In this document: piece by piece, positions 1 to 27,400 of the stretch
How positions within the stretch are numbered: position 1 is the stretch's first letter
Layout: each line of letters begins with the position of its first letter
DNA from: Macrosoma leucophasiata
Taxonomy: Eukaryota > Arthropoda > Insecta > Lepidoptera > Hedylidae
DNA length: 64,000 nt
Reading direction: 5' to 3'
Assembly (NCBI GenBank): GCA_036365455.1
Contig: JAWQUS010000010.1
Span: 22,120,501-22,184,500, forward strand
Notes under the pieces: model-generated
What the model saw: the letters and a program-made list of their open reading frames with translations, nothing else
What the model was told of the DNA's origin: nothing
Database searches by the model: none
Translations under genes and position numbers: made by a program

Positions 1-3000
1 CCCCCCGCGCTCCTCACCCCGCCGCCTGCTGCTCGACTGGTCCTTCTACAGCTCGCTCGTCATCCGCGAGCTCACGCTCAGGTGCGCCCGCCGCCCCCCG
101 CCCCCCGCGCTCCTCCCCCCGCCGCCTGCTGCTCGACTGGTCCTTCTACAGCTCGCTCGTCATCCGCGAGCTCACGCTCAGGTGCGCCCGCCGCCCCCCG
201 CCCCCCGCGCTCCTCACCCCGCCGCCTGCTGCTCGACTGGTCCTTCTACAGCTCGCTCGTCATCCGCGAGCTCACGCTCAGGTGCGCCCGCCGCCCCCCG
301 CCCCCCGCGCTCCTCCCCCCGCCGCCTGCTGCTTGACTGGGCCTTCTACAGCTCGCTCGTCATCCGCGAGCTCACGCTCAGGTGCGCCCGCTGCCCCCCG
401 CGCTCCTCCCCCCGCCGCCTGCTGCTCGACTGGTCCTTCTACAGCTCGCTCGTCATCCGCGAGCTCACGCTCAGGTGCGCCCGCCGCCCCCCGCCCCCCG
501 CGCTCCTCCCCCCGCCGCCTGCTGCTCGACTGGTCCTTCTACAGCTCGCTCGTCATCCGCGAGCTCACGCTCAGGTGCGCCCGCCGCCCCCCGCCCCCCG
601 CGCTCCTCACCCCGCCGCCTGCTGCTCGACTGGTCCTTCTACAGCTCGCTCGTCATCCGCGAGCTCACGCTCAGGTGCGCCCGCCGCCCCCCGCCCCCCG
701 CGCTCCTCCCCCCGCCGCCTGCTGCTCGACTGGTCCTTCTACAGCTCGCTCGTCATCCGCGAGCTCACGCTCAGGTGCGCCCGCCGCCCCCCGCCCCCCG
801 CGCTCCTCCTCCCGCCGCCTGCTGTTCGACTGGGCCTTCTACAGCTCGCTCGTCATCCGCGAGCTCACGCTCAGGTGCGCCCGCCGCCCCCCGCCCCCCG
901 CGCTCCTCCCCCCGCCGCCTGCTGCTCGACTGGTCCTTCTACAGCTCGCTCGTCATCCGCGAGCTCACGCTCAGGTGCGCCCGCCGCCCCCCGCCCCCCG
1001 CGCTCCTCCCCCCGCCGCCTGCTGCTCGACTGGTCCTTCTACAGCTCGCTCGTCATCCGCGAGCTCACGCTCAGGTGCGCCCGCCGCCCCCCGCCCCCCG
1101 CGCTCCTCCCCCCGCCGCCTGCTGCTCGACTGGTCCTTTTACAGCTCGCTCGTCATCCGCGAGCTCACGCTCAGGTGCGCCCCCCGCCCCCCGCCGCCTG
1201 CTGCTCGACTGGTCCTTCTACAGCTCGCTCGTCATCCGCGAGCTCACGCTCAGGTGCGCCCGCCGCCCCCCGCCCCCCGCGCTCCTCCCCCCGCCGCCTG
1301 CTGCTCGACTGGTCCTTCTACAGCTCGCTCGTCATCCGCGAGCTCACGCTCAGGTGCGCCCCCCCGCCCCCCGCCGCCTGCTGCTCGACTGGTCCTTCTA
1401 CAGCTCGCTCGTCATCCGCGAGCTCACGCTCAGGTGCGCCCGCCGCCCCCCGCCCCCCGCGCTCCTCCCCCCGCCGCCTGCTGCTCGACTGGTCCTTCTA
1501 CAGCTCGCTCGTCATCCGCGAGCTCACGCTCAGGTGCGCCCGCCGCCCCCCGCCCCCCGCGCTCCTCCCCCCGCCGCCTGCTGCTCGACTGGTCCTTCTA
1601 CAGGCTCGCTCGTCATCCGCGAGCTCACGCTCAGGTGCGCCCGCCGCCCCCCGCCCCCCGCGCTCCTCCCCCCGCCGCCTGCTGCTCGACTGGTCCTTCT
1701 ACAGCTCGCTCGTCATCCGCGAGCTCACGCTCAGGTGCGCCCCCCGCCCCCCGCCGCCTGCTGCTCGACTGGTCCTTCTACAGCTCGCTCGTCATCCGCG
1801 AGCTCACGCTCAGGTGCGCCCGCCGCCCCCCGCCCCCCGCGCTCCTCCTCCCGCCGCCTGCTGTTCGACTGGGCCTTCTACAGCTCGCTCGTCATCCGCG
1901 AGCTCACGCTCAGGTGCGCCCGCCGCCCCCCGCCCCCCGCGCTCCTCCCCCCGCCGCCTGCTGCTCGACTGGTCCTTCTACAGCTCGCTCGTCATCCGCG
2001 AGCTCACGCTCAGGTGCGCCCGCCGCCCCCCGCCCCCCGCGCTCCTCCCCCCGCCGCCTGCTGCTCGACTGGTCCTTCTACAGCTCGCTCGTCATCCGCG
2101 AGCTCACGCTCAGGTGCGCCCGCCGCCCCCCGCCCCCCGCGCTCCTCCCCCCGCCGCCTGCTGCTCGACTGGTCCTTCTACAGCTCGCTCGTCATCCGCG
2201 AGCTCACGCTCAGGTGCGCCCCGCCGCCCCCCGCCGCCTGCTGCTCGACTGGTCCTTCTACAGCTCGCTCGTCATCCGCGAGCTCACGCTCAGGTGCGCC
2301 CGCCGCCCCCCGCCCCCCGCGCTCCTCCCCCCGCCGCCTGCTGCTCGACTGGTCCTTCTACAGCTCGCTCGTCATCCGCGAGCTCACGCTCAGGTGCGCC
2401 CCCCGCCCCCCGCCGCCTGCTGCTCGACTGGTCCTTCTACAGCTCGCTCGTCATCCGCGAGCTCACGCTCAGGTGCGCCCGCCGCCCCCCGCGCTCCTCC
2501 CCCCGCCGCCTGCTGCTCGACTGGTCCTTCTACAGCTCGCTCGTCATCCGCGAGCTCACGCTCAGGTGCGCCCGCCGCCCCCCGCCCCCCGCGCTCCTCC
2601 CCCCGCCGCCTGCTGCTCGACTGGTCCTTCTACAGCTCGCTCGTCATCCGCGAGCTCACGCTCAGGTGCGCCCGCCGCCCCCCGCCCCCCGCGCTCCTCC
2701 CCCCGCCGCCTGCTGCTCGACTGGTCCTTCTACAGCTCGCTCGTCATCCGCGAGCTCACGCTCAGGTGCGCCCGCCGCCCCCCGCCCCCCGCGCTCCTCC
2801 CCCCGCCGCCTGCTGCTCGACTGGTCCTTCTACAGCTCGCTCGTCATCCGCGAGCTCACGCTCAGGTGCGCCCCCCGCCCCCCGCCGCCTGCTGCTCGAC
2901 TGGTCCTTCTACAGCTCGCTCGTCATCCGCGAGCTCACGCTCAGGTGCGCCCGCCGCCCCCCGCCCCCCGCGCTCCTCCCCCCGCCGCCTGCTGCTCGAC

Positions 3001-3744
3001 TGGTCCTTCTACAGCTCGCTCGTCATCCGCGAGCTCACGCTCAGGTGCGCCCGCCGCCCCCCGCCCCCCGCGCTCCTCCCCCCGCCGCCTGCTGCTCGAC
3101 TGGTCCTTCTACAGCTCGCTCGTCATCCGCGAGCTCACGCTCAGGTGCGCCCGCCGCCCCCCGCCCCCCGCGCTCCTCCCCCCGCCGCCTGCTGCTCGAC
3201 TGGTCCTTCTACAGCTCGCTCGTCATCCGCGAGCTCACGCTCAGGTGCGCCCGCCGCCCCCCGCCCCCCGCGCTCCTCCCCCCGCCGCCTGCTGCTCGAC
3301 TGGTCCTTCTACAGCTCGCTCGTCATCCGCGAGCTCACGCTCAGGTGCGCCCGCCGCCCCCCGCCCCCCGCGCTCCTCCCCCCGCCGCCTGCTGCTCGAC
3401 TGGTCCTTCTACAGCTCGCTCGTCATCCGCGAGCTCACGCTCAGGTGCGCCCGCCGCCCCCCGCCCCCCGCGCTCCTCCCCCCGCCGCCTGCTGCTCGAC
3501 TGGTCCTTCTACAGCTCGCTCGTCATCCGCGAGCTCACGCTCAGGTGCGCCCGCCGCCCCCCGCCCCCCGCGCTCCTCCCCCCGCCGCCTGCTGCTCGAC
3601 TGGTCCTTCTACAGCTCGCTCGTCATCCGCGAGCTCACGCTCAGGTGCGCCCGCCGCCCCCCGCCCCCCGCGCTCCTCACCCCGCCGCCTGCTGCTCGAC
3701 TGGTCCTTCTACAGCTCGCTCGTCATCCGCGGGCTCACGCTCAG
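1..3744 (+). repeat. 100-bp minisatellite made of an RFX exon end plus its splice donor
   Basis: The array holds about 39 tandem units and continues past the left edge of the window. The main unit is 100 bp; shorter units of about 78-95 bp differ mostly by losses in the C-rich spacer. Each unit has about 63 nt of exon encoding DWSFYSSLVIRELTLR, the donor CAG|GTGCGC, and about 37 nt of C-rich intron. The peptide matches the conserved RFX segment just before SAASFGSFHLIRLL. The exon-derived part is nearly invariant; the few changes seen include TGGGCC for TGGTCC (three units), CCTTTTACAG near 1136, an extra G near 1603, and the last unit, which has CGGGCTC and a weaker donor, GTTGTC. Because 100 is not a multiple of 3 and no unit contains a stop, all three + frames stay open for over 3 kb; these are not genes. 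Confidence 0.95.
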
Positions 3745-6700
3745 GTTGTCCGCCACCGTAAAGTACGGACAGTACACAGTATATGGTACACGGTACAGAT
3801 AGCGGACGAACTTTGGCCGGAATGCCGCTGGTCTGGTGGGGTCCCTCGCGCCGGATCCGCGCACCTTCTACACTTAGCGTACATAGGTGGCGAGGACACG
3901 CACGGGCACTGTCTTCATAGCTACTAATTTTATCATTTACCTGCTAGCTTTATTTCGCACGCGCTGCTTACGGCGCCACCGGTCGAAAATTAGTCATACC
4001 AACTCAGAAGCCTTTGTGGGTTCACACACTATCTGTACTAGATTTAAGCTCTCATTTAAAAGAGCTCTTACTGAGTTTGTTGGGTAGCGGAGTTCTTCTC
4101 AGTAGTGACTGCACTTGGAACTCTGCTAAGTGAATAACATTGATCTTGACGAACAAGTTTTTCTTTTTCTTCATTTATTATCATTGAAGGAATTGAAAAA
4201 TTTTATGATTATTATGTTTTAACCAAATAGTTTAAATTTTAATTTTTAATTTACTATTAATATATGATTTTGCTTTTACTATATGTAATGGTTATTCGCT
4301 CTAGGTAGTTTATGATTTATTGACGTTTTGAAAGTATCTGTAAAGATCTATTCGAAATAAAAATATTTTATATTCTTTTCTATTCTATTCTATACACAAC
4401 AACTTGCTCAACAATCATCACGTCATATGATCTAATGTATAGTTCGTGTCACAGAATCGTATATCGTATATGACGTTTGAATGTAACGATTGTGCGGCAC
4501 AGGTCGGCGGCGTCGTTCGGCTCGTTCCACCTGATCCGGCTGCTGTACGACGAGTACGTGTCGTTCCTCGTGGAGCGCCGCGTGGCCGCGCACCTGCGCC
4601 TGCCGCCCATCGCCGTCATGCACCGCGACCTGGTGCGTACACTTACGGGAACACATAGTGCGAGATTCACAGGCCGCACTACGACTTTACTTTGAGCAAA
4701 GTATGCTTAGAACTGTCAGAAATGTATGGGTTTTGACGGTTCGAAGCGTACTTTGCTCGAAAGTAAAGTCGTAGTGCGGTCTATGAATCTCACCCATAGA
4801 AAGGCGCACGGAGTTTTGGCGGGAAGCTTGAATGATGCGTGTGGTGCTCTTATTTTATTTCATACTAGCCGATCCGGCAAACTTCGTATTGCCTCAGAAT
4901 GAAAATATGACATGTGTGTCGAAGGTTTGATAGATACGTATATTTGTATGGGAAAATGAAATGGTGGGTTTTGCTATTTCCCTTCAATTTCTTCATATTT
5001 TTCTTACCTTTTAAACATTCCCTGGACTTCCATTAATCATTCAAAATCAATATAAGCCAAATCGGTCCAGCCATTCACGCGTGATGCCGTGACCAAGAAA
5101 ACGGGTTGCATTTTTATATATATAGATTTTTGGTGTATTTCTGAGTTATATTAAATAAAGTTGGTGGTATTTTGTTTGATATAGGCTTATTACAGTGCTC
5201 GTGTGTAGTAAAATAGAATAACAGTTCGAAAACACGTTCTTTTGGGTTGCCTCCGAAACTTCATTGTAAATGTTCTGGTAAAGTAGCCATTGCTTTACTC
5301 GAATAACTGTGACTCTGACTAACGGACTGATAAATAATTGACTAACTGATTCTGACTCTCTGACTCTTTGACGTTGCTTATTACGAATACGAAATATCGT
5401 TTTACTTGACACTGACAATATGCATAACAAGCAATGCCATTTAATATAAAAAAATACTCACATACTTAGCATGCACGCACCAGTACACGTACAGTCAACG
5501 GCAAAAGTAGATCATCAAAATCGGACATTCAATACTAATTGTCATAATTTGCGTCAAAGTAGTGTGGCGGTTTAGTGTTTCTAAAGTACAAGATTAAGAT
5601 TGTGACGTGTACCAATACTATTTTGACGCAAATTACGGTAGTTAGTATTGAATGTCTGATTTTGATCACCTACTTTTGCCGTTGACCGTACGCCTGTACA
5701 AACACACCCATACACGCACACACGCACGCATGAATGCTCGCATGAATGACGTGCATTGCATAGAAGCAGAAGATATTTACGTCAGTATACGGATTGGGTT
5801 GGGGTACATGTTTTCTTTAAAATATTTTTTTCTAAAAATGATTTAACTTTTAATATTTACCCCCTTATTCATAAACGTATTTTAGCTAGTGTTGCTAATC
5901 TCTCCTTTGTCTTTTTCTATCCTGCACGTTTGACAATGCTACTGACAAGGACAAAGCATTCTATAGCTAAAACATATCTAATGTACATTTTGTTTTTAAA
6001 GAAAAATGGAAAGAAAAAATTGACTTCAGGCGAGACTCGAACTCGCGACCCACTGGGAATCCAGTCCAGCCGCTCCTCCAATTGAGCCACCGAAGCCCTG
6101 CCCAATCTGTCAAATTTTTCCTTCACATCTATTGCATTGTTTTATGGTAGCAGCAGCGCCATCCATTACCAACTATGCTAGTTAGGCAACCATAAAACAA
6201 TGCAATAGATGTGAAGGAAAAATTTGACAGATTGGGCAGGGCTTCGGTGGCTCAATTGGAGGAGCGGCTGGACTGGATTCCCAGTGGGTCGCGAGTTCGA
6301 GTCTCGCCTGAAGTCAATTTTTTCTTTCCATTTTTCTTTAAAAACAAAATATATTTCACAATCATGTGTTAATGCGAAATAATATAAAACAAATATCTAA
6401 TGTACGTTTATGAATAAGGGGGTAAATTAATAACATATTTTTAAAAAAAGGATATCCGTTTATTTTTTGATGAGGTGGTTAGGTGATTTCTATATATTTG
6501 CCTTTATGCGATGCACGCAACAGGTTCACACCCATGCACAAATACTTACATACATGCACACGTACACGCTCACACACGAACGCACATAGGCACTACGTAC
6601 GCACTGACTCACTTGCGCACATAGGTACTACACACGTCCAATTTTCAAACGTACAACTATTTATATTCTAACATAATCTTTAAAAACGTCAATTGCAGGA

Positions 6701-10795: not shown

Positions 10796-13700
10796 CATCA
10801 TCATCATCATCATTTCAGCCAAAAGACGTCCACTGCTGGACAAAGGCCTCCCCCAAAGAATGCCACAACGAACGGTCCTGGGCCGCCCTCATCCAACGAT
10901 TGCCCGCGACCTTCACCAGGTCGTCGGTCCACCTCGTGGGGGGCCTGCCTACGCTTCGTCTTCCGGTACGCGGTCGCCACTCTAGAACTCTTCTGCCCCA
11001 ACGGCCGTCAGTTCTGCGAGCTATGTGCCCTGCCCACTGCCACTTGAGTTTCGCTATTCGATGGGCTATGTCGGTTACTTTAGTTCTCATGCGGATCTCC
11101 TCATTTCTGATTCGATCTCGCAGAGTAACTCCGAGCATAGCCCTCTCCATCGCTCTCTGAGTGACCTTGAGCCTTCTTATGAGGCCCATAGTGAGCGACC
11201 ACGTTTCTGTTCCGTATGTCATCACTGGCAACACACACTGGTCAAAGACCTTCTTCTTCAGACACTGCGGTAAATTGGACGAGAAGATATAACGCAGCTT
11301 CCCGAACGCAGCCCATCCGAGTTGGATTCGGCGATTGACCTCTTTCTCGAAGTTGGACCTACCTAACTGGACCGTTTGTCCCAGGTATACGTAATCGTCA
11401 ACAACTTCGAGTGTAGTACCCTCGACCATAACAGGAGTGGGCGTAACAAGGACATTCGACATAATCTTCGTCTTGTCCATGTTCATTTTAAGGCCCACTC
11501 GTTGGGAGGCCCTACTGAGGCCATTGAGCATTGTGCCAAGGTCTTCCAGGGTCTCAGCCATGACTACGATATCATCCGCAAATCGGAGGTGGGAGATGTA
11601 CTCGCCGTTAATGTTGATGCCGAGTCCGTTCCAGTCCAGAAGCTTGAAGACATCTTCCAATGCAGCGGTGAACAGTTTCGGAGATATGACATCTCCCTGT
11701 CTCACACCTCGCTGCAGTTGGATAGGTTTCGAGTTCTGGTCCTGAAGGCGAACCGACATAGTGGCGTTTTCGTACAAGCTCCTTAGCACCTCGATGTATC
11801 GGTAGTCGACTTGGCACCTCTGGAGTGACTGTAGCACAGCCCAAATCTCGACCGAATCGAAGGCTTTCTCATAGTCCACAAACGCTAGACAGAGGGGCTG
11901 GTTATACTCTTCTGTCTTCTGTATAACCTGCCGCAGCGTGTGTATGTGGTCTATGGTGCTAAAACCTTTACGGAACCCGGCTTGTTCGGGAGGCTGGAAG
12001 TCGTCGAGTCTGCGAGATAGACGGTTCGTAACCACTCTCGAAAACAGCTTGTAGACGTGACTTAGAAGTGCGATGGGCCTATAATTTTTAAGAAGGGTAT
12101 TGTCGCCTTTCTTAAAGAACAGTACCACCACACTTCTGTGCCACGCCTGTGGCGTTTTTCCCTCGGATATGACGGAATTGAACATCAACTGAAGAGCTTC
12201 TAATACTGGCCTTCCGCCCGCTTTCAGGAGTTCAGCAGTGATTCCGTCATCACCCGGCGCCCTGTTGTTTTTGAGCTGTTTGAGAGCCGTGCTAATCTCG
12301 TCTAGACTGACGTCCGGGATATCTTCGGTGTAGTGTCGGGTCAGTCCGGCTCTAGGATCTGCTGCCGGACTGTTAACAGGTGGTCGTGCTGTCGTGTATA
12401 ACTGTCCGTAAAACCGTTCGATCTCTTCTGCAAGCTCAGGTTTCGACGATACGATTCTGTTGTCCTCTGTCTTCAGCTTAGTGAGACGGCTTTGCCCTAA
12501 GGACAGATCTTTGGCGAACACTTTAGAGCCCTTGTGCTGCTCTATGGCTGCTTTAATACTATCAGTATTAAAGTGCCGAAGGTCGCGAGTCAATGACTTC
12601 GAGATCTGTCTGTTGAGCCGCCTGTACACTAAAGCATCTTCAGAGGACTTCAGAACCATACCGCGCCTCTCCTCCATAAGCTTGAGAGTTGGGCTGGAGA
12701 TCTTTTTGGTTTTATTCGTAGGGCGGGTCTTGAAAAACTTAGAGCCCGCCGTACGGACAGTTTCCACGAACCTGTTATTGTAATCGTCCACATCTACGCA
12801 CTCACTCAGGCCTTCGAAGCGATTTTGTAGCTCGAGTTGAAAGCTCTCGGGGTTTTGGATTTGGGCAGGTGCTGGGCGGAGCGTAGACTTCATTAGTCGG
12901 GATCTTTCGATCTTGACCTTTATATTCAGTGTGCCTCTTACCAATCGGTGATCACTCCCGGTTTTTACCGAATTGATCACAGAGACATCACTGAATATAT
13001 GCCGCCTCGTGGACATAATGAAGTCTATCTCATTTTTAGTCGCACCATCAGGACTGATCCAGGTCCACTTCCGGCACTCCCGCTTCTTGAAGAAAGAGTT
13101 CATCATGAAGAGGCTCTCTTTCTCCATGAAGTCAGCCAGAGTCTGGCCCCTGGTGTTTCGTTGCCCATATCCAAATCGTCCCATTTTCAGCTCATGATCA
13201 CCTCGAACGCCCAATTTCGCGTTGAAATCCCCCATGACAACGTTGTAGTGGGTCTTCGAACTATGTATGGCTCTGGAAATGTCCTCATACATAGTTTCTA
13301 CCTCATCATCGGAGTGTGCGGAGGTTGGGGCGTAGACCTGTATGACCTTCAGCGAATACCGTTTGGTTATTCTGAGTATAAGGTACGCCACTCTCGACGA
13401 CACACTCTCGATCTTGACAACGTTGTTCACGAGGGACTTGTGGACGATAAACCCGACACCACCTTGGGACAGTTGGTCGCCCTCCCGGAAATAGAGCAGG
13501 TTACCAGACTTGAGGGTTATCGAGTCCTCCCCCTGTCTTCGGACTTCCGATAACCCTACAATGTGCCACCGTAACCCGCTCAATTCTTCCTCCAGTTCCA
13601 TGACTTTCTCGTCAGTCCGCAGCGTCCGTACGTTGTATGTTGCCAGGGCCAGTTGTCGTCGGGTGTGGTACCCTGGCATCTCCCGGTGATTCTTAGCACC

Positions 13701-14003
13701 CCCTGCCCCGCCGTTACCATGACCGGTACCACCATGGTCAGGAATAGCGAAGCTACCGGGGACTAGGGGCCGTTGTGTGTGAATCATTGGGGTGATTTGC
13801 CATAATCGCCACGCTTGGCATGCGGATTGGCGATCGCAGTGGCGGCAATTTTATCACGGGACGCTGCTGCCCATCCCGGATACTCCTACCGCCATGGTTT
13901 GACCGCCATTGTTCGGTTGACTGACTGCACTAGAGGAAGAATTCCCTCCACTAGAAGAGAATTCTTCCGCTAGCGGGCGATGGGGTCGTCACATCCCGAC
14001 GCC
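10796..14003 (-). mobile_element. Full-length RTE-clade non-LTR retrotransposon
   Basis: The element is 3.2 kb, flanked by an 11-bp direct duplication AATTCATTGAT (10785-10795 and 14004-14014). It reads on the - strand. A 5' region of about 216 bp precedes the ORF. The 3' end is only about 19 nt past the stop and consists of a TGA/ATG triplet repeat. Short size, one ORF with an endonuclease followed by a reverse transcriptase, almost no 3' UTR and a microsatellite tail fit the RTE clade. The intact ORF and clean duplication point to a recent insertion. Diverged 3' fragments of relatives lie at about 21515-22062, 36384-36475 and 48540-48600. Confidence 0.93.
10815..13787 (-). CDS. RTE ORF: apurinic endonuclease plus reverse transcriptase
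   Basis: A 990-aa uninterrupted ORF. An exonuclease-endonuclease-phosphatase domain occupies about residues 45-300, with TYNVRTLR, GLSEVRRQ, GDFNAKLG and, at its end, TGSDHRLVRGTL. A reverse transcriptase follows at about 480-780, with NYRPIALLSHVYKL, AFVDYEKAFDS, GVRQGDVISPKLF and the catalytic FADDIVVMAE. The C-terminal region has GHIARRTDGRWGRRVLEW and GRPPTRWTDDL, common in RTE/CR1-type elements. The protein nicks target DNA and copies its RNA there. The first ATG was taken as start; an in-frame downstream start is possible. Opposite-strand ORFs here, such as 12948-13553, are shadows. Confidence 0.95.
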   Translation of the reverse strand: MIHTQRPLVPGSFAIPDHGGTGHGNGGAGGAKNHREMPGYHTRRQLALATYNVRTLRTDEKVMELEEELSGLRWHIVGLSEVRRQGEDSITLKSGNLLYFREGDQLSQGGVGFIVHKSLVNNVVKIESVSSRVAYLILRITKRYSLKVIQVYAPTSAHSDDEVETMYEDISRAIHSSKTHYNVVMGDFNAKLGVRGDHELKMGRFGYGQRNTRGQTLADFMEKESLFMMNSFFKKRECRKWTWISPDGATKNEIDFIMSTRRHIFSDVSVINSVKTGSDHRLVRGTLNIKVKIERSRLMKSTLRPAPAQIQNPESFQLELQNRFEGLSECVDVDDYNNRFVETVRTAGSKFFKTRPTNKTKKISSPTLKLMEERRGMVLKSSEDALVYRRLNRQISKSLTRDLRHFNTDSIKAAIEQHKGSKVFAKDLSLGQSRLTKLKTEDNRIVSSKPELAEEIERFYGQLYTTARPPVNSPAADPRAGLTRHYTEDIPDVSLDEISTALKQLKNNRAPGDDGITAELLKAGGRPVLEALQLMFNSVISEGKTPQAWHRSVVVLFFKKGDNTLLKNYRPIALLSHVYKLFSRVVTNRLSRRLDDFQPPEQAGFRKGFSTIDHIHTLRQVIQKTEEYNQPLCLAFVDYEKAFDSVEIWAVLQSLQRCQVDYRYIEVLRSLYENATMSVRLQDQNSKPIQLQRGVRQGDVISPKLFTAALEDVFKLLDWNGLGININGEYISHLRFADDIVVMAETLEDLGTMLNGLSRASQRVGLKMNMDKTKIMSNVLVTPTPVMVEGTTLEVVDDYVYLGQTVQLGRSNFEKEVNRRIQLGWAAFGKLRYIFSSNLPQCLKKKVFDQCVLPVMTYGTETWSLTMGLIRRLKVTQRAMERAMLGVTLRDRIRNEEIRMRTKVTDIAHRIAKLKWQWAGHIARRTDGRWGRRVLEWRPRTGRRSVGRPPTRWTDDLVKVAGNRWMRAAQDRSLWHSLGEAFVQQWTSFG

Positions 14004-21270: not shown

Positions 21271-21340
21271 GCCTGCAGCGGCCTACAGCGGCCTGCAGCG
21301 GCCTGCAGCGGCCTGCAGCGGCCTGCAGCGGCCTACAGCG
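21271..21340 (-). repeat. 10-bp tandem repeat overlapping the IFRD stop codon
   Basis: Seven units of GCCTRCAGCG (+ strand) run head to tail. The unit nearest the gene supplies the final Ala-Leu codons and the TAG stop (21333-21335); the remaining units are 3' UTR. Confidence 0.85.
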
Positions 21341-21419: not shown

Positions 21420-24400
21420 CTGCAACAGAAACATGTTACGTTATTATATTTTTCTATGAGAGCTTGTAGACGGAAGGAATATGGTTTGGATTAGCGATTA
21501 CTTTAATTAATTGATCATCTTCATCACATCAGCCATAGGACGTCCACTGCTGAACATAGGCCTCCCCCGATGACCTTCATGCCGACCGATCGGAAGCGAC
21601 GTGCGTCCAGCGGGTACCTGCAGCCTTCACTAGGTCGTCGGTCCATCTCGCTTGTCCCACACTGCGCTTGCCGCGATACGTGGTCTCCACTCGAGAACCT
21701 TTCTGCCCCAGCGGCTATCGGTTCTCCGAGCTATGTGCCCTGCCTATTGTCACTTCAGCTTTGAAATCTGCTTGGCTATGTCAGCAACTTTCGTTCGCCT
21801 CCGGATCTCCTCATTTCTGATTCGATCCAGTAGGGAATCGCCGAGCCCTTTCTATTGACCGCGGAGTGCCTTGGAGCTCTCGTACGAGTTACATAGTGAG
21901 AGACCACGTCTCGGCACCGTAGATCATCACCGGTAAAACGCACCGATTAGAAGACTTTCGTCTTCAAGGACTGCGGGTTGTTTACGAGAAAACGCTCCTT
22001 AACTTCCCGAACGCTGCCCAGTCGAGTTCGAATTGATCATCGATTCCAATTTCAACGTTGAAACTAAAATCTTGAAAAAGAGTCGGTAAAATAATGCAGA
22101 CGACGAGTCTCACTTCACCGGACAATCGGCGAGGGCAGAGGGCGCGGTGGACCTCGCGGATAGAGTACACTTACATGTCGCGACTCGTCGAGTCGGGCTG
22201 CGATCGTAACGTAGCTCGTAGCTAAATAGGACGCGTGCGGTGCGAGGAGTGTCCGGGCGAGCAAAGCGGCGATGAGCGTGAAGCGACACAACTGTATCGC
22301 CACAGTGCGATCACAGGTTTTTTTTTTTTTTTGAGGTCGGGCTTTATGTTGGCTGCCTGTCTCGAGACGGCACTAGTCTACTTCACCGGGCAATGGGCGA
22401 GCGCAGAAGGCGCTCCAGCCTAAGCAAAAAAAGTTAGCGCAACTGCCTAAGGGTGACCCATGCGGGTCCGTGTCTCGGCTTAGGGCGTTGCGGAGGGACA
22501 TATGAGACATATGCGATTATGGGCGGTGCAACTTTCGCTCTACTCCATTCGGTTGGTGATAACCGGAATGTCATCGGCCTCGCGGGGCCGGAGATAGGGT
22601 CGGGATCAGGGGCGGGCGCGGCGCGAAACGCGTCGGCGCGTTGTATTGTTGGCGGTTTGTGCAGTGTGATTCTGTAAATGATCGTTCATAGCGGCGATGG
22701 CCAACGTGGTCTCATCGTCCGGATCTTTTAAGACGCGCTTTGGACGTCTCCTTTTGGCGCGATCAAAAGGAGTGTGCGATCACAGGGGCGTCGTAAGGAG
22801 CCTATATACTCACACGTTGCAGCTTGTTCAGTTTGTGCGGCGGCGGGGCGGCGCTGGGCGCGTCGGGCAGGCGCAGCGCGGCGCGCAGCGGGCCGCAGTG
22901 CGGCGCGAGCGGCAGCAGCGCGGCGCCGAGCGCGGCGGCCAGCGCGTCGTAGGCGGCGCGCGCGCCCCACGTGCCGCACCACACCGTCTCCGCGCCCACG
23001 CGCACGCGCACCTCGCCCACGGCGCCCTCCTGCGACGCCACACACAAATTCTGAGACTATCGTCCGTAGTAGAAAGAAAGAAAACGTCTATTCGGACGGC
23101 ACGGGGACGTGACGATGCAAAATTTCCATAAGTGTACAATTAAACGAGAAAGAAAAACGGTCGACTCGAAATTACGAGTAGAATAAACGCAAAAGGTTTT
23201 GTTTAGTCCTATCTTGCCGTTTGAAAAAGAGAATAATGAAAATTCTGTAGATACCTATTTTAATTATTAAGTATTTTTGGACCATTGTTTATTTTATTTT
23301 TGTTTACTTTGACATATCAACCAACGTATCGGTTGTTATTCGTTTTAATTTTATATTTGTTTCGAGTTAAAGTTTGAAAAAAACATGCTCTAGTCTCCAA
23401 AAGTTCCAGAGGGCGACCGGCGACTCACCTCGAAGTACTTGAGTATGTCGCGGAAGGTGGCCCGCTGCAACTTGCGGTCGCGCTTGGCGCGGTACTTGTG
23501 AGAGTCGCGCGCCAGCCGCTCCAGCCGCTCCAGCAGCACGCGCGCCGTGCCCGCCTCCAGCACCTCGCTATCGCCGTCGCCGTCGTCGTCCGCCGTCACC
23601 GCCTCGTGGGCCATCGCCACCGCCGCGCCCGCAGACATCCGCACCTGATACATGGATACAACATTAATTAAATACACGAAATGTTTATTTCGTACATTTG
23701 TTATACGTAAAGATTCAAACTAACTAACGACTCACCTCCAGGCTGCAGGCCTCCAGCAGGTCGGCGAGCGCGCGAGGAGGGCGGCGGGCGGGGGGCGGGG
23801 GACTCACCTCCAGGCTGCAGGCCTCCAGCAGGTCGGCGAGCGCGCGAGGAGGGCGGCGCGCGGGGGCGGCGGGGGACTCACCTCCAGGCTGCAGGCCTCC
23901 AGCAGGTCGGCGAGCGCGCGGAAGCCGGGCGGCTGGCGCGCGAGGAGGGCGGCGCGCGGGGGGCGGGGGACTCACCTCCAGGCTGCAGGCCTCCAGCAGG
24001 TCGGCGAGCGCGCGGAAGCCGGGCGGCTGGCACGCGAGGAGGGCGGCGCGCGGGGGGCGGGGGACTCACCTCCAGGCTGCAGGCCTCCAGCAGGTCGGCG
24101 AGCGCGCGGAAGCCGGGCGGCTGGCGCACGAGGAGGGCGGCGGGCGGGGGGCGGGGGACTCACCTCCAGGCTGCAGGCCTCCAGCAGGTCGGCGAGCGCG
24201 CGAGGAGGGCGGCGCGCGGGGGGCGGGGGACTCACCTCCAGGCTGCAGGCCTCCAGCAGGTCGGCGAGCGCGCGGAAGCCGGGCGGCTGGCGCGCGAGGA
24301 GGGCGGCGGGCGGGGGGCGGGGGACTCACCTCCAGGCTGCAGGCCTCCAGCAGGTCGGCGAGCGCGCGGAAGCCGGGCGGCTGGCGCGCGAGGAGGGCGG

Positions 24401-27400
24401 CGGGCGGGGGGCGGGGGACTCACCTCCAGGCTGCAGGCCTCCAGCAGGTCGGCGAGCGCGCGGAAGCCGGGCGGCTGGCGCGCGAGGAGGGCGGCGGGCG
24501 GGGGGCGGGGGACTCACCTCCAGGCTGCAGGCCTCCAGCAGGTCGGCGAGCGCGCGGAAGCCGGGCGGCTGGCGCGCGAGGAGGGCGGCGGGCGGGGGGC
24601 GGGGGACTCACCTCCAGGCTGCAGGCCTCCAGCAGGTCGGCGAGCGCGCGGAAGCCGGGCGGCTGGCGCGCGAGGAGGGCGGCGGGCGGGGGGCGGGGGA
24701 CTCACCTCCAGGCTGCAGGCCTCCAGCAGGTCGGCGAGCGCGCGGAAGCCGGGCGGCTGGCGCGCGAGGAGGGCGGCGGGCGGGGGGCGGGGGACTCACC
24801 TCCAGGCTGCAGGCCTCCAGCAGGTCGGCGAGCGCGCGGAAGCCGGGCGGCTGGCGCGCGAGGAGGGCGGCGGGCGGGGGGCGGGGGACTCACCTCCAGG
24901 CTGCAGGCCTCCAGCAGGTCGGCGAGCGCGCGGAAGCCGGGCGGCTGGCGCGCGAGGAGGGCGGCGGGCGGGGGGCGGGGGACTCACCTCCAGGCTGCAG
25001 GCCTCCAGCAGGTCGGCGAGCGCGCGGAAGCCGGGCGGCTGGCGCGCGAGGAGGGCGCGTGCGTGCAGCGGCTCCAGCAGGCCCAGCAGCAGCGCCCAGC
25101 CCTCCAGCGCCGCCGCGTGCCAGGCGCCCTCCTCCACCGCCGCGCCGGAGACCTTCACCGTGCCGTCGCCCTGGACACGACACACGTATTCATTTAGTTT
25201 AGGGGCTGACGGCGCTTCAGTTCCGCTGGTGGTGCGGATCATAAGCGACGGTGACCGCTCTCCGTCGGGTGACACTTTCGCTTGTCTGTTGTTTATTTTG
25301 ATGAAAACATACGCCTAGACTAAACTTGAACTGCATTTTACCCGGTAAACGATATCACAGGTTAAAAAGTGCAGCTCACTTCGATTCGAATTAATCGAGC
25401 TCGAACGACCGAGTTGGCTAAGTTTATGTTTTAAATGTAACTGGCAAATCATAACTGTTTCCGAATATGTTTAAATCTATTTATTAACATCCTATCCCTT
25501 CGGCAAATATGAGCGTCAAATTACATTGTTTGTGCCAAAGTATGTAGATGTTAATTCTGAAACAAGTGAAAATTTGTTTCTATCTATACAAATAAAAATG
25601 AATTACCGAAATGTTTTTCAGCACATATATTTCAAACGACTGCACCAAATTGGATACTATTACATCTTTTTTCATAAAAAAACATTTTAAAATCTCCGAT
25701 GGCGGTACGAACTTTACCGATCAAACTAGTTTATGATAAAGCGAATAAATCGCAGCACATTTGTATCATCAACTCGTTAGCAAATCGAATAACTGCAAGA
25801 AAAAACTAAACCTACATTAATTATTGAGGGCGGACAATAAAACCGATCATAATCTAAAAACCAAACATGCAACATACTACTACTACAAGTACAAGGTTAT
25901 TGCAAAATATTGTATAGAGAAGTGGAACAAAAGATGTTATTTGCACAAGACGTTGACTCGCACGGAGGTGGTCATAAATCATTGAACTCCTGTTTGACCT
26001 TGTCAGCGTGATTCACGAGTCTATTATCGCGTGTGCGAATTTTCGCTTTAATAAAGTCGAAAATGGTGATCTCAGAATCTCAGCATTCTGACCATACTAA
26101 GAAAATCAAGAAATATATTTCTGGTTTTGAGTGCTCAACAAAAGGAGAAAGAATTTTCTGACTAACTGATACCTTTCAATTTATTTATATCTCATAATAT
26201 AAATTTGAAACTATTGAATTTGTAAAAGATACGCTTTACCTAATGTGGAACACGATAGTGCTGACCGCTACCATTTAGCGGCAAGTATATTAGGTAATGC
26301 GGTAGGGCCTGGGCCCGCGAGCTCCGTCACTGAAGCTCTGCCACCAGTAAATGGTATATTATTATATGCCAGGCTTGCTATATTCAATACACATTGCCTT
26401 AAGGGGTTAAGTAGCCTGGAAGACCATGGCAAAACGGAGCTCATCATATATTTGTCAAAATTTGAGCGATCTAGCAGATACTCGCTGTACTTGGTCGACA
26501 AGATCAAGAGTAATTGTAGAGGAGACAAGCATTGCTGTGCTTATTAATATTGCATCAGTGATTATACTACTAGAACGGTTTTGAATACAACATTCGCTAT
26601 TGGTACGGGTAGCGAGCGAAACTTGCTTGATTTTTGCTCGTTAGTTATTTCTGCGTTGCGAACGGTCTAACCTTGGATAATTTAAAAACTTAATATTTTA
26701 TGTACATAAGAATGGTGGGCTGTTGTGCTATGTATGACTGTATGGTGATAGAACTTTAATGAACGAGCTCGAAGGCGTGAACACCTCCATATCATCTACT
26801 TTACCTACCAGTAAATGATAACTCCATGTCCACCATTACCATGTTCTGGTAAGGTGGTAGTATACAGTGGTAGAGCTTCAGTGGCCAAGCTCCAGGGCGA
26901 GCGATCACCACCGCATTTCGCAATTTACATGTCACTAAATGGTACCTATTTTAAGCGATAACAGTATGTAAGCAATGTGGGTATCAATGTCAAAGTTCCT
27001 TGAGGTGATAATTACGAAAATGATATCTCCCTTAAAATCGAAGATTGCGGAGATAATTATTTTTCGAAAATATGATATGGATTTCAATTTTACGGTATCT
27101 TGAGGTAAAAATTTTTCAAATTCAAGATAGCGGACAGATTATTTATTTTTTCTATGGGTCTTAATTTTACAGTTTCTTGGGAGTTCTGATTACGAAAATG
27201 GCATCTATTTGCAGATCCAAGATAGCTGACAGTTTTTTTTTAAATATGACATGGGTATCAATTTCGAGGTTTCTTGGGGTGCTGATTACGCAAATGGGAT
27301 CATTTTTCAAATCCAAGATGGCGGACAAATAATTTCTTCCAAATTGTGATATGAGTGTCAATTTCGAGGTTTCTTGGGGTGCTGATTACTAAAATGATCT

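Follow-up and report, generated by a model that had tools for sequence, protein, structure and literature searches.

Minisatellites that are repeated at exon boundaries and leave splicing undisturbed are known from lancelets (amphioxus). Accounts of these mirage minisatellites (PMC3087553, PMC3902484) describe them gene by gene and at both boundaries of exons, in Adh3, the globins BflGb6 and BflGb9, PGBD5 and TnC, with repeats that are homogenised inside the array and diverged at its edges. Copy-number polymorphism and somatic instability are further traits of the class. Here we describe arrays that we liken to them in the insect Macrosoma leucophasiata (Lepidoptera; Hedylidae), beginning with a tandem array in an IFRD gene. 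The array is read on the reverse strand of a stretch of 64,000 nucleotides (GenBank assembly GCA_036365455.1, contig JAWQUS010000010.1, positions 22,120,501 to 22,184,500), which is called the window below, and it repeats the 3' end of an exon together with its 5' splice site (donor). As in the mirage class, the repeat spans an exon-intron boundary, and the units, which measured 69-130 bp in the 23 arrays read in this genome, fall within the class range of about 10-160 bp. Unlike the lancelet cases described, the present arrays are found across one insect genome with an excess at donors, are GC-rich with many C-rich fillers, and reach 55 or more copies. In the part of the literature searched, we found no report of donor-side minisatellites in insects, and the published boundary minisatellites that we found come from a handful of lancelet genes. 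What is new, as far as our searches show, is that such arrays occur in an insect, that they extend over a whole genome and that they are in excess at donors.

Two further systems are close in some respects. Human minisatellites of the CEB1 type are likewise GC-rich tandem arrays, enriched near human chromosome ends (PMC3486850). Unlike the arrays here, they are not tied to splice sites. In intron gain by tandem genomic duplication (PMC4974935), exon DNA is duplicated along with splice signals, as it is here.

The IFRD array

The initial annotation had assigned the gene to IFRD, and this assignment held. The next exon alone matches PF05004 with 60.6 bits, and both exons joined at the first donor give one continuous PF05004 match (profile 179-306, 95.1 bits). 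Because the domain runs on unbroken across this join, the array belongs to the intron. The anatomy that had been proposed, in which an exon tail, GTGAGT and a C-rich intron start are repeated, was recovered with a tail of 70 nt in place of the 69 nt claimed. The accompanying count of fifteen units of 94 bp has to be amended to 15 donors and 14 repeats, 11 of them 94 bp and three 72-74 bp long. The 15 GTGAGT donors (24987, 24893, 24799, 24705, 24611, 24517, 24423, 24329, 24235, 24163, 24069, 23975, 23881, 23807 and 23735) comprise the native exon end and the 14 repeats, and all are intact. From each of the three short units the same part of the exon tail, ~22 bp, is missing. Most of the filler occurs in neither flank, the unit matches into the 3' flank over 7 nt only, and the intron of 1343 bp consists almost entirely of the array (coordinates in Table 1).

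If the frame is followed past the first donor, it runs into a stop 189 nt farther on, within the third repeat, and none of the later donors that precede this stop preserves the frame. The same frame test found no frame-keeping later donor in Rfx array B, a transketolase gene and a gene with Sel1 repeats; in Rfx array C the read-through has no stop within the 3000 nt read, and the test is uninformative there.

Recurrence and anatomy of donor arrays in the genome

The IFRD array and an Rfx array had been taken in the initial annotation as two cases of a process recurring in this genome. The Rfx array is real, its exon matching PF25340, with 55-56 donors by two counts (array C). Two more arrays (A and B) lie just upstream of it, which makes four in all (IFRD and Rfx A, B and C) within about 30 kb. 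The exons at array B, spliced at the first donor, give a continuous PF25340 match (82-169, 105.8 bits); the exon at array A gave no Pfam match. A local duplication between Rfx and IFRD was ruled out, as the units are unrelated and similar arrays occur on many contigs.

Recurrence is supported across the whole genome. Three tandem copies of AGGTRAGT were found 164 times at a period of 76-106 and 120 times at a period of 107-137; with the motif reversed, the counts are 0 and 1. Three copies of GTGAGT at a period of 76-106 gave 1196 matches against 700 for a backward control that is of little use, the reversed word TGAGTG sitting within GTGAGTG. We read 20 of 24 places among the GTGAGT matches listed, and 15 of the 20 were GC-rich arrays of exon tail, donor and spacer. 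Contigs C1-C5, with 110 of the 616 Mb, hold fourteen of these 15; extrapolated to the whole genome, this would amount to about 80 arrays for that one donor word. In the 39 stretches read (316,720 bases), every array with a unit GC content of at least 0.60 carries a donor-like site (22 of 22), as does L030 (GC 0.56 by its shortest-period row), giving 23 arrays. Seven of them were found without the GTGAGT bait, although the 23 are not independent, three being in or by Rfx and the rest near baited places. Three arrays with GC of 0.56-0.59 (L007, L019 and L043) were left out of the exon-end reading. The native exon side has an open frame inside the stretch for 19 of the 23 arrays, and the other four are cut off. 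Ten exon readings yielded four Pfam matches, to Rfx, transketolase, Sel1 repeats and TTC7; joining the TTC7 exons gained only 0.7 bits, since the domain ends there. No GC-rich donor array was present in twelve 10-kb stretches at fixed places on other contigs, nor in six neighbouring stretches.

The span of unit lengths given above overturns the fixed unit of 94-100 bp that had been proposed, and row spacing in the pattern lists, where arrays are known from matches only, runs from 45 to about 136. Among the 17 arrays that are not cut near stretch ends, exon tails measure 47-90 nt and leave 10-42 nt for the remainder of the unit. Several arrays have only about 2-21 nt of unit sequence in common with the 3' flank, so that little intron is inside the unit. 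By eye the fillers are mostly C-rich in the sense strand, some being G-rich and some dinucleotide repeats. The word CTCCTC, once put forward as a shared spacer feature, proved to be native exon sequence in IFRD and filler in Rfx array C, and was rejected as a common signal. The modal period modulo 3 is 1 in 10, 2 in 9 and 0 in 4 arrays; that the period of 19 of the 23 arrays is not divisible by 3 is within chance (p 0.12), and there is therefore no sign of translation.

Many tail copies do not differ from the native exon at all. Sixteen of 20 arrays were compared by halves (4 with fewer than 4 units were skipped, 3 of the 23 were left out, and 4 of the 16 tied), and the exon-side half was nearer the native exon in 9 of the 12 with differing halves and farther from it in three. 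Mismatches to the modal unit were counted in 15 arrays, in modal-length units only and with 12 anchor bases per unit that could not differ; they amount to 5 of 858 cells at donor bases and 67 of 12,693 at other bases (Fisher p 0.81), and all five donor-base differences are in L027 and L030. Donor bases inside the arrays thus diverge about as fast as the rest, as for passengers, and no extra constraint is seen on them; the idea of conserved decoy donors was rejected.

The position of the arrays along contigs was also considered. Of the donor arrays, 14 are on C1-C5, and 7 of these fall within the outer 5% at either contig end (p 1.8e-4, Kolmogorov-Smirnov (KS) p 0.011), with a 5% cut-off picked after looking and on contigs that need not be chromosomes. 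The same outer 5% holds 6 of 8 acceptor-like arrays, 2 of 7 AGGTRAGT arrays (KS p 0.40; most are also in the first set) and, from an additional set of arrays, 3 of 10 (p 0.07, KS p 0.15). Clustering of donor arrays at contig ends is suggestive only.

Explanations for the donor arrays

We consider the arrays to be neutral, GC-rich minisatellites of the mirage type, which persist at donors because the first donor excludes the remaining copies from the mRNA; we put the probability of this reading at about two in three. A tandem duplication would bring together the GC-rich 3' end of an exon, the donor, a handful of bases from the intron and some C-rich filler. Unequal exchange or slippage during replication would then multiply this unit, while deletions would arise between short repeats. 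Splicing would take the first donor, leaving all later copies as intron and the protein unaltered. Exon 3' ends in this genome may be where GC-rich, repeat-prone DNA leaves coding constraint, and arrays would recur there. Were an array to sit within an exon, or at an acceptor but lacking its branch point, it would become part of the mRNA and be filtered by selection; the donor excess would for that reason need no mutation directed at donors. We infer the order of events, the mechanism of expansion, the choice of the first donor by the splicing machinery and the filtering by selection from the genome sequence.

Several observations weigh against this reading. Use of the first donor is deduced from the continuous Pfam domain in IFRD and Rfx B, and TTC7 has one later donor that stays in frame ahead of the stop. 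Two insect relatives of the IFRD exon (P0035 and P0036) favour the reading, as each continues beyond the donor for 12-15 codons and shows no tail copy there, but this read-through is short and could still have an array farther on; a third reads 5 codons only and is too short to tell, the tail copy here beginning after 24 nt. One array, L039a, is possibly a stop-codon array (AAG-TAG) rather than a donor array, and homologues of the L039 protein were sought and none found. A G-quadruplex (G4) motif (four G runs, loops 1-12), by which arrays would join the CEB1 type, is present in IFRD, Rfx A and Rfx C and in only 8 of the 23 arrays overall; the likeness does not extend to the class, and G4 as a common driver was rejected. 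The comparison of splice-site words cuts both ways, and its counts are raw, without calibration to the frequency of each word at native sites. In favour of the reading, the acceptor words TTGCAG (141 against 220 backward) and TTTNCAGG (24 against 17 backward) showed no excess in tandem genome-wide. By eye, 4 of the roughly 16 native introns that precede arrays have TTGCAG at their end, and this word therefore is not a rare acceptor. The C-rich acceptor-like word YYYYYYNCAGG, however, was found in tandem 123 times against 12, at places that include C2:431636, C3:236399, C5:266960, C6:11527887, C9:27004802 and 27079185, C10:15732562, C12:180217, C15:56038 and 9682035, C23:230811 and C26:17767680. 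The enrichment of donors over acceptors expected in the initial annotation thus holds relative to TTGCAG and TTTNCAGG, with the C-rich word enriched as well. None of the arrays read matches YYYYYYNCAGG, and among 100 of its 123 matches listed, a donor-like word was nearby or just upstream at 3 of 14 places. Acceptor-side arrays may hence exist, as pattern matches.

The donor excess is explained equally well by the selection filter or by a mutational mechanism specific to donors. A mechanism of the latter kind, seeding arrays through, for example, template switching or DNA damage during transcription where exon meets intron, would account for the strong enrichment of donor words beside the flat counts of TTGCAG and TTTNCAGG, for the little intron inside the units, and for the three arrays close together in or beside Rfx. 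However, selection that removes arrays elsewhere gives the same pattern, the exon-intron border is also a border between GC-rich and AT-rich DNA, and the C-rich acceptor-like matches lie outside what such targeting predicts; we regard it as unlikely. It is much harder to hold that the arrays are kept for a function, for instance as numerous U1 binding sites where the intron begins or as additional exon segments that are in frame and regulated. None of the 15 IFRD donors is damaged and the 51 nt beyond the first CAG of the IFRD unit are a multiple of 3, as such a function would have it, but donor bases diverge as fast as others in the arrays counted above, alternative IFRD donors break the frame, and the 43 nt from donor to first CAG are short for an insect intron. 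We consider a function very improbable.

That the repeats have just created new introns by tandem duplication is an idea to which we give very little credence. The units do hold a donor and AG sequences, as in the published cases (PMC4974935, PMC3087553), and two of 11 TTC7 relatives viewed (P0001 and P0007) read straight across the exon junction. However, the other 9 of the 11 break off there (12 of 34 matches were viewed, one of them being the next exon), and all 3 insect relatives found for the IFRD exon share one codon as their breaking point. Since relatives break off at the same junction, the introns look older than the arrays; absence of the intron from relatives, which marks intron gain, is mixed for TTC7 and is not seen for IFRD, where the shared position suggests an intron that was enlarged, not created. 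An assembly artefact, with copies collapsed or expanded, is scarcely credible as the source of the arrays. Tandem arrays are error-prone in assemblies and the copies are nearly identical, but there are distinct variants, diverged copies, unique flanks in many unrelated genes and, in Rfx array B, a higher-order repeat in which units of 89 and 98 bp alternate. The copy number may be off, the existence of the arrays hardly.

Beyond the neutral reading, a more far-reaching proposal, which we offer tentatively and would sooner doubt than accept, is that a process in this genome starts minisatellites at the 5' splice sites of at least a hundred genes and enlarges them, with the result that the coding ends of exons evolve in concert with dozens of intronic copies. 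If this were true, conversion from the array could bring array mutations into the exon, and arrays would be ready material for intron growth and new introns. The arrays raise the questions of how the spliceosome chooses one among up to 55 near-identical donors, whether repeat expansion at their 5' ends makes introns grow, whether homogenisation links exon ends to the intronic copies, and whether mutation or selection is behind the donor excess. They would also serve as variable markers and would be a source of annotation errors.

Coordinates and neighbouring observations

Table 1 Features of the IFRD array and of the Rfx arrays. Positions are those of the window unless L005 is named.
Feature	Position	Strand	Remarks
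Tandem array	23729-25057	- (reading)	Tandem Repeats Finder (TRF)
IFRD exon upstream of array	24988..25170	-	183 nt, 61 codons, ends in phase 0
Repeated exon tail, last 70 nt of IFRD exon	24988-25057	-	
Array of 14 repeats, unit of GTGAGT, C-rich filler and exon-tail copy	23736..24987	-	11 x 94 bp, 72, 74, 72 bp
First GTGAGT donor	24982..24987	-	restores IFRD reading frame
72-bp unit	24164..24235	-	lacks ~22 bp of tail
Two short units (74 + 72 bp)	23736..23881	-	intron side of IFRD array
Last donor and AT-rich native intron	23645..23735	-	91 bp, ends in CAG
Next IFRD exon	23429..23644	-	72 codons; PF05004 230-306 (query 23405-23644); end 23429 judged by eye
Rfx exon-end donor array C, part inside window	1..3744	+	begins left of window at L005 8284
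Exon-end donor array A	L005 4657-5153 (C10, left of window)		assigned to Rfx by position alone
Exon-end donor array B, in Rfx exon	L005 6151-6791 (C10, left of window)		PF25340

Some minor observations were made along with the above. At the Rfx array in the window, positions 337-3927 (+) hold a stop-free frame of 1196 codons despite a frame-shifting unit of 100 bp. An open frame of 1011 codons at 10815-13850 (-) has endonuclease and reverse transcriptase domains and resembles a retrotransposon of the long interspersed nuclear element (LINE) type. At 21271-21340 of the window there are seven copies of a 10-bp GC-rich repeat, GCCTGCAGCG. Elsewhere in the genome, G000 (C28:1140782-1141792) shows a donor pattern on the + strand and an acceptor-plus-donor pattern on the - strand at a row spacing of 68, as a pattern match only. 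The donor array L040 (C6:593300-597100) has as its filler a CA microsatellite of varying length, so that two types of repeat mutate within one unit.

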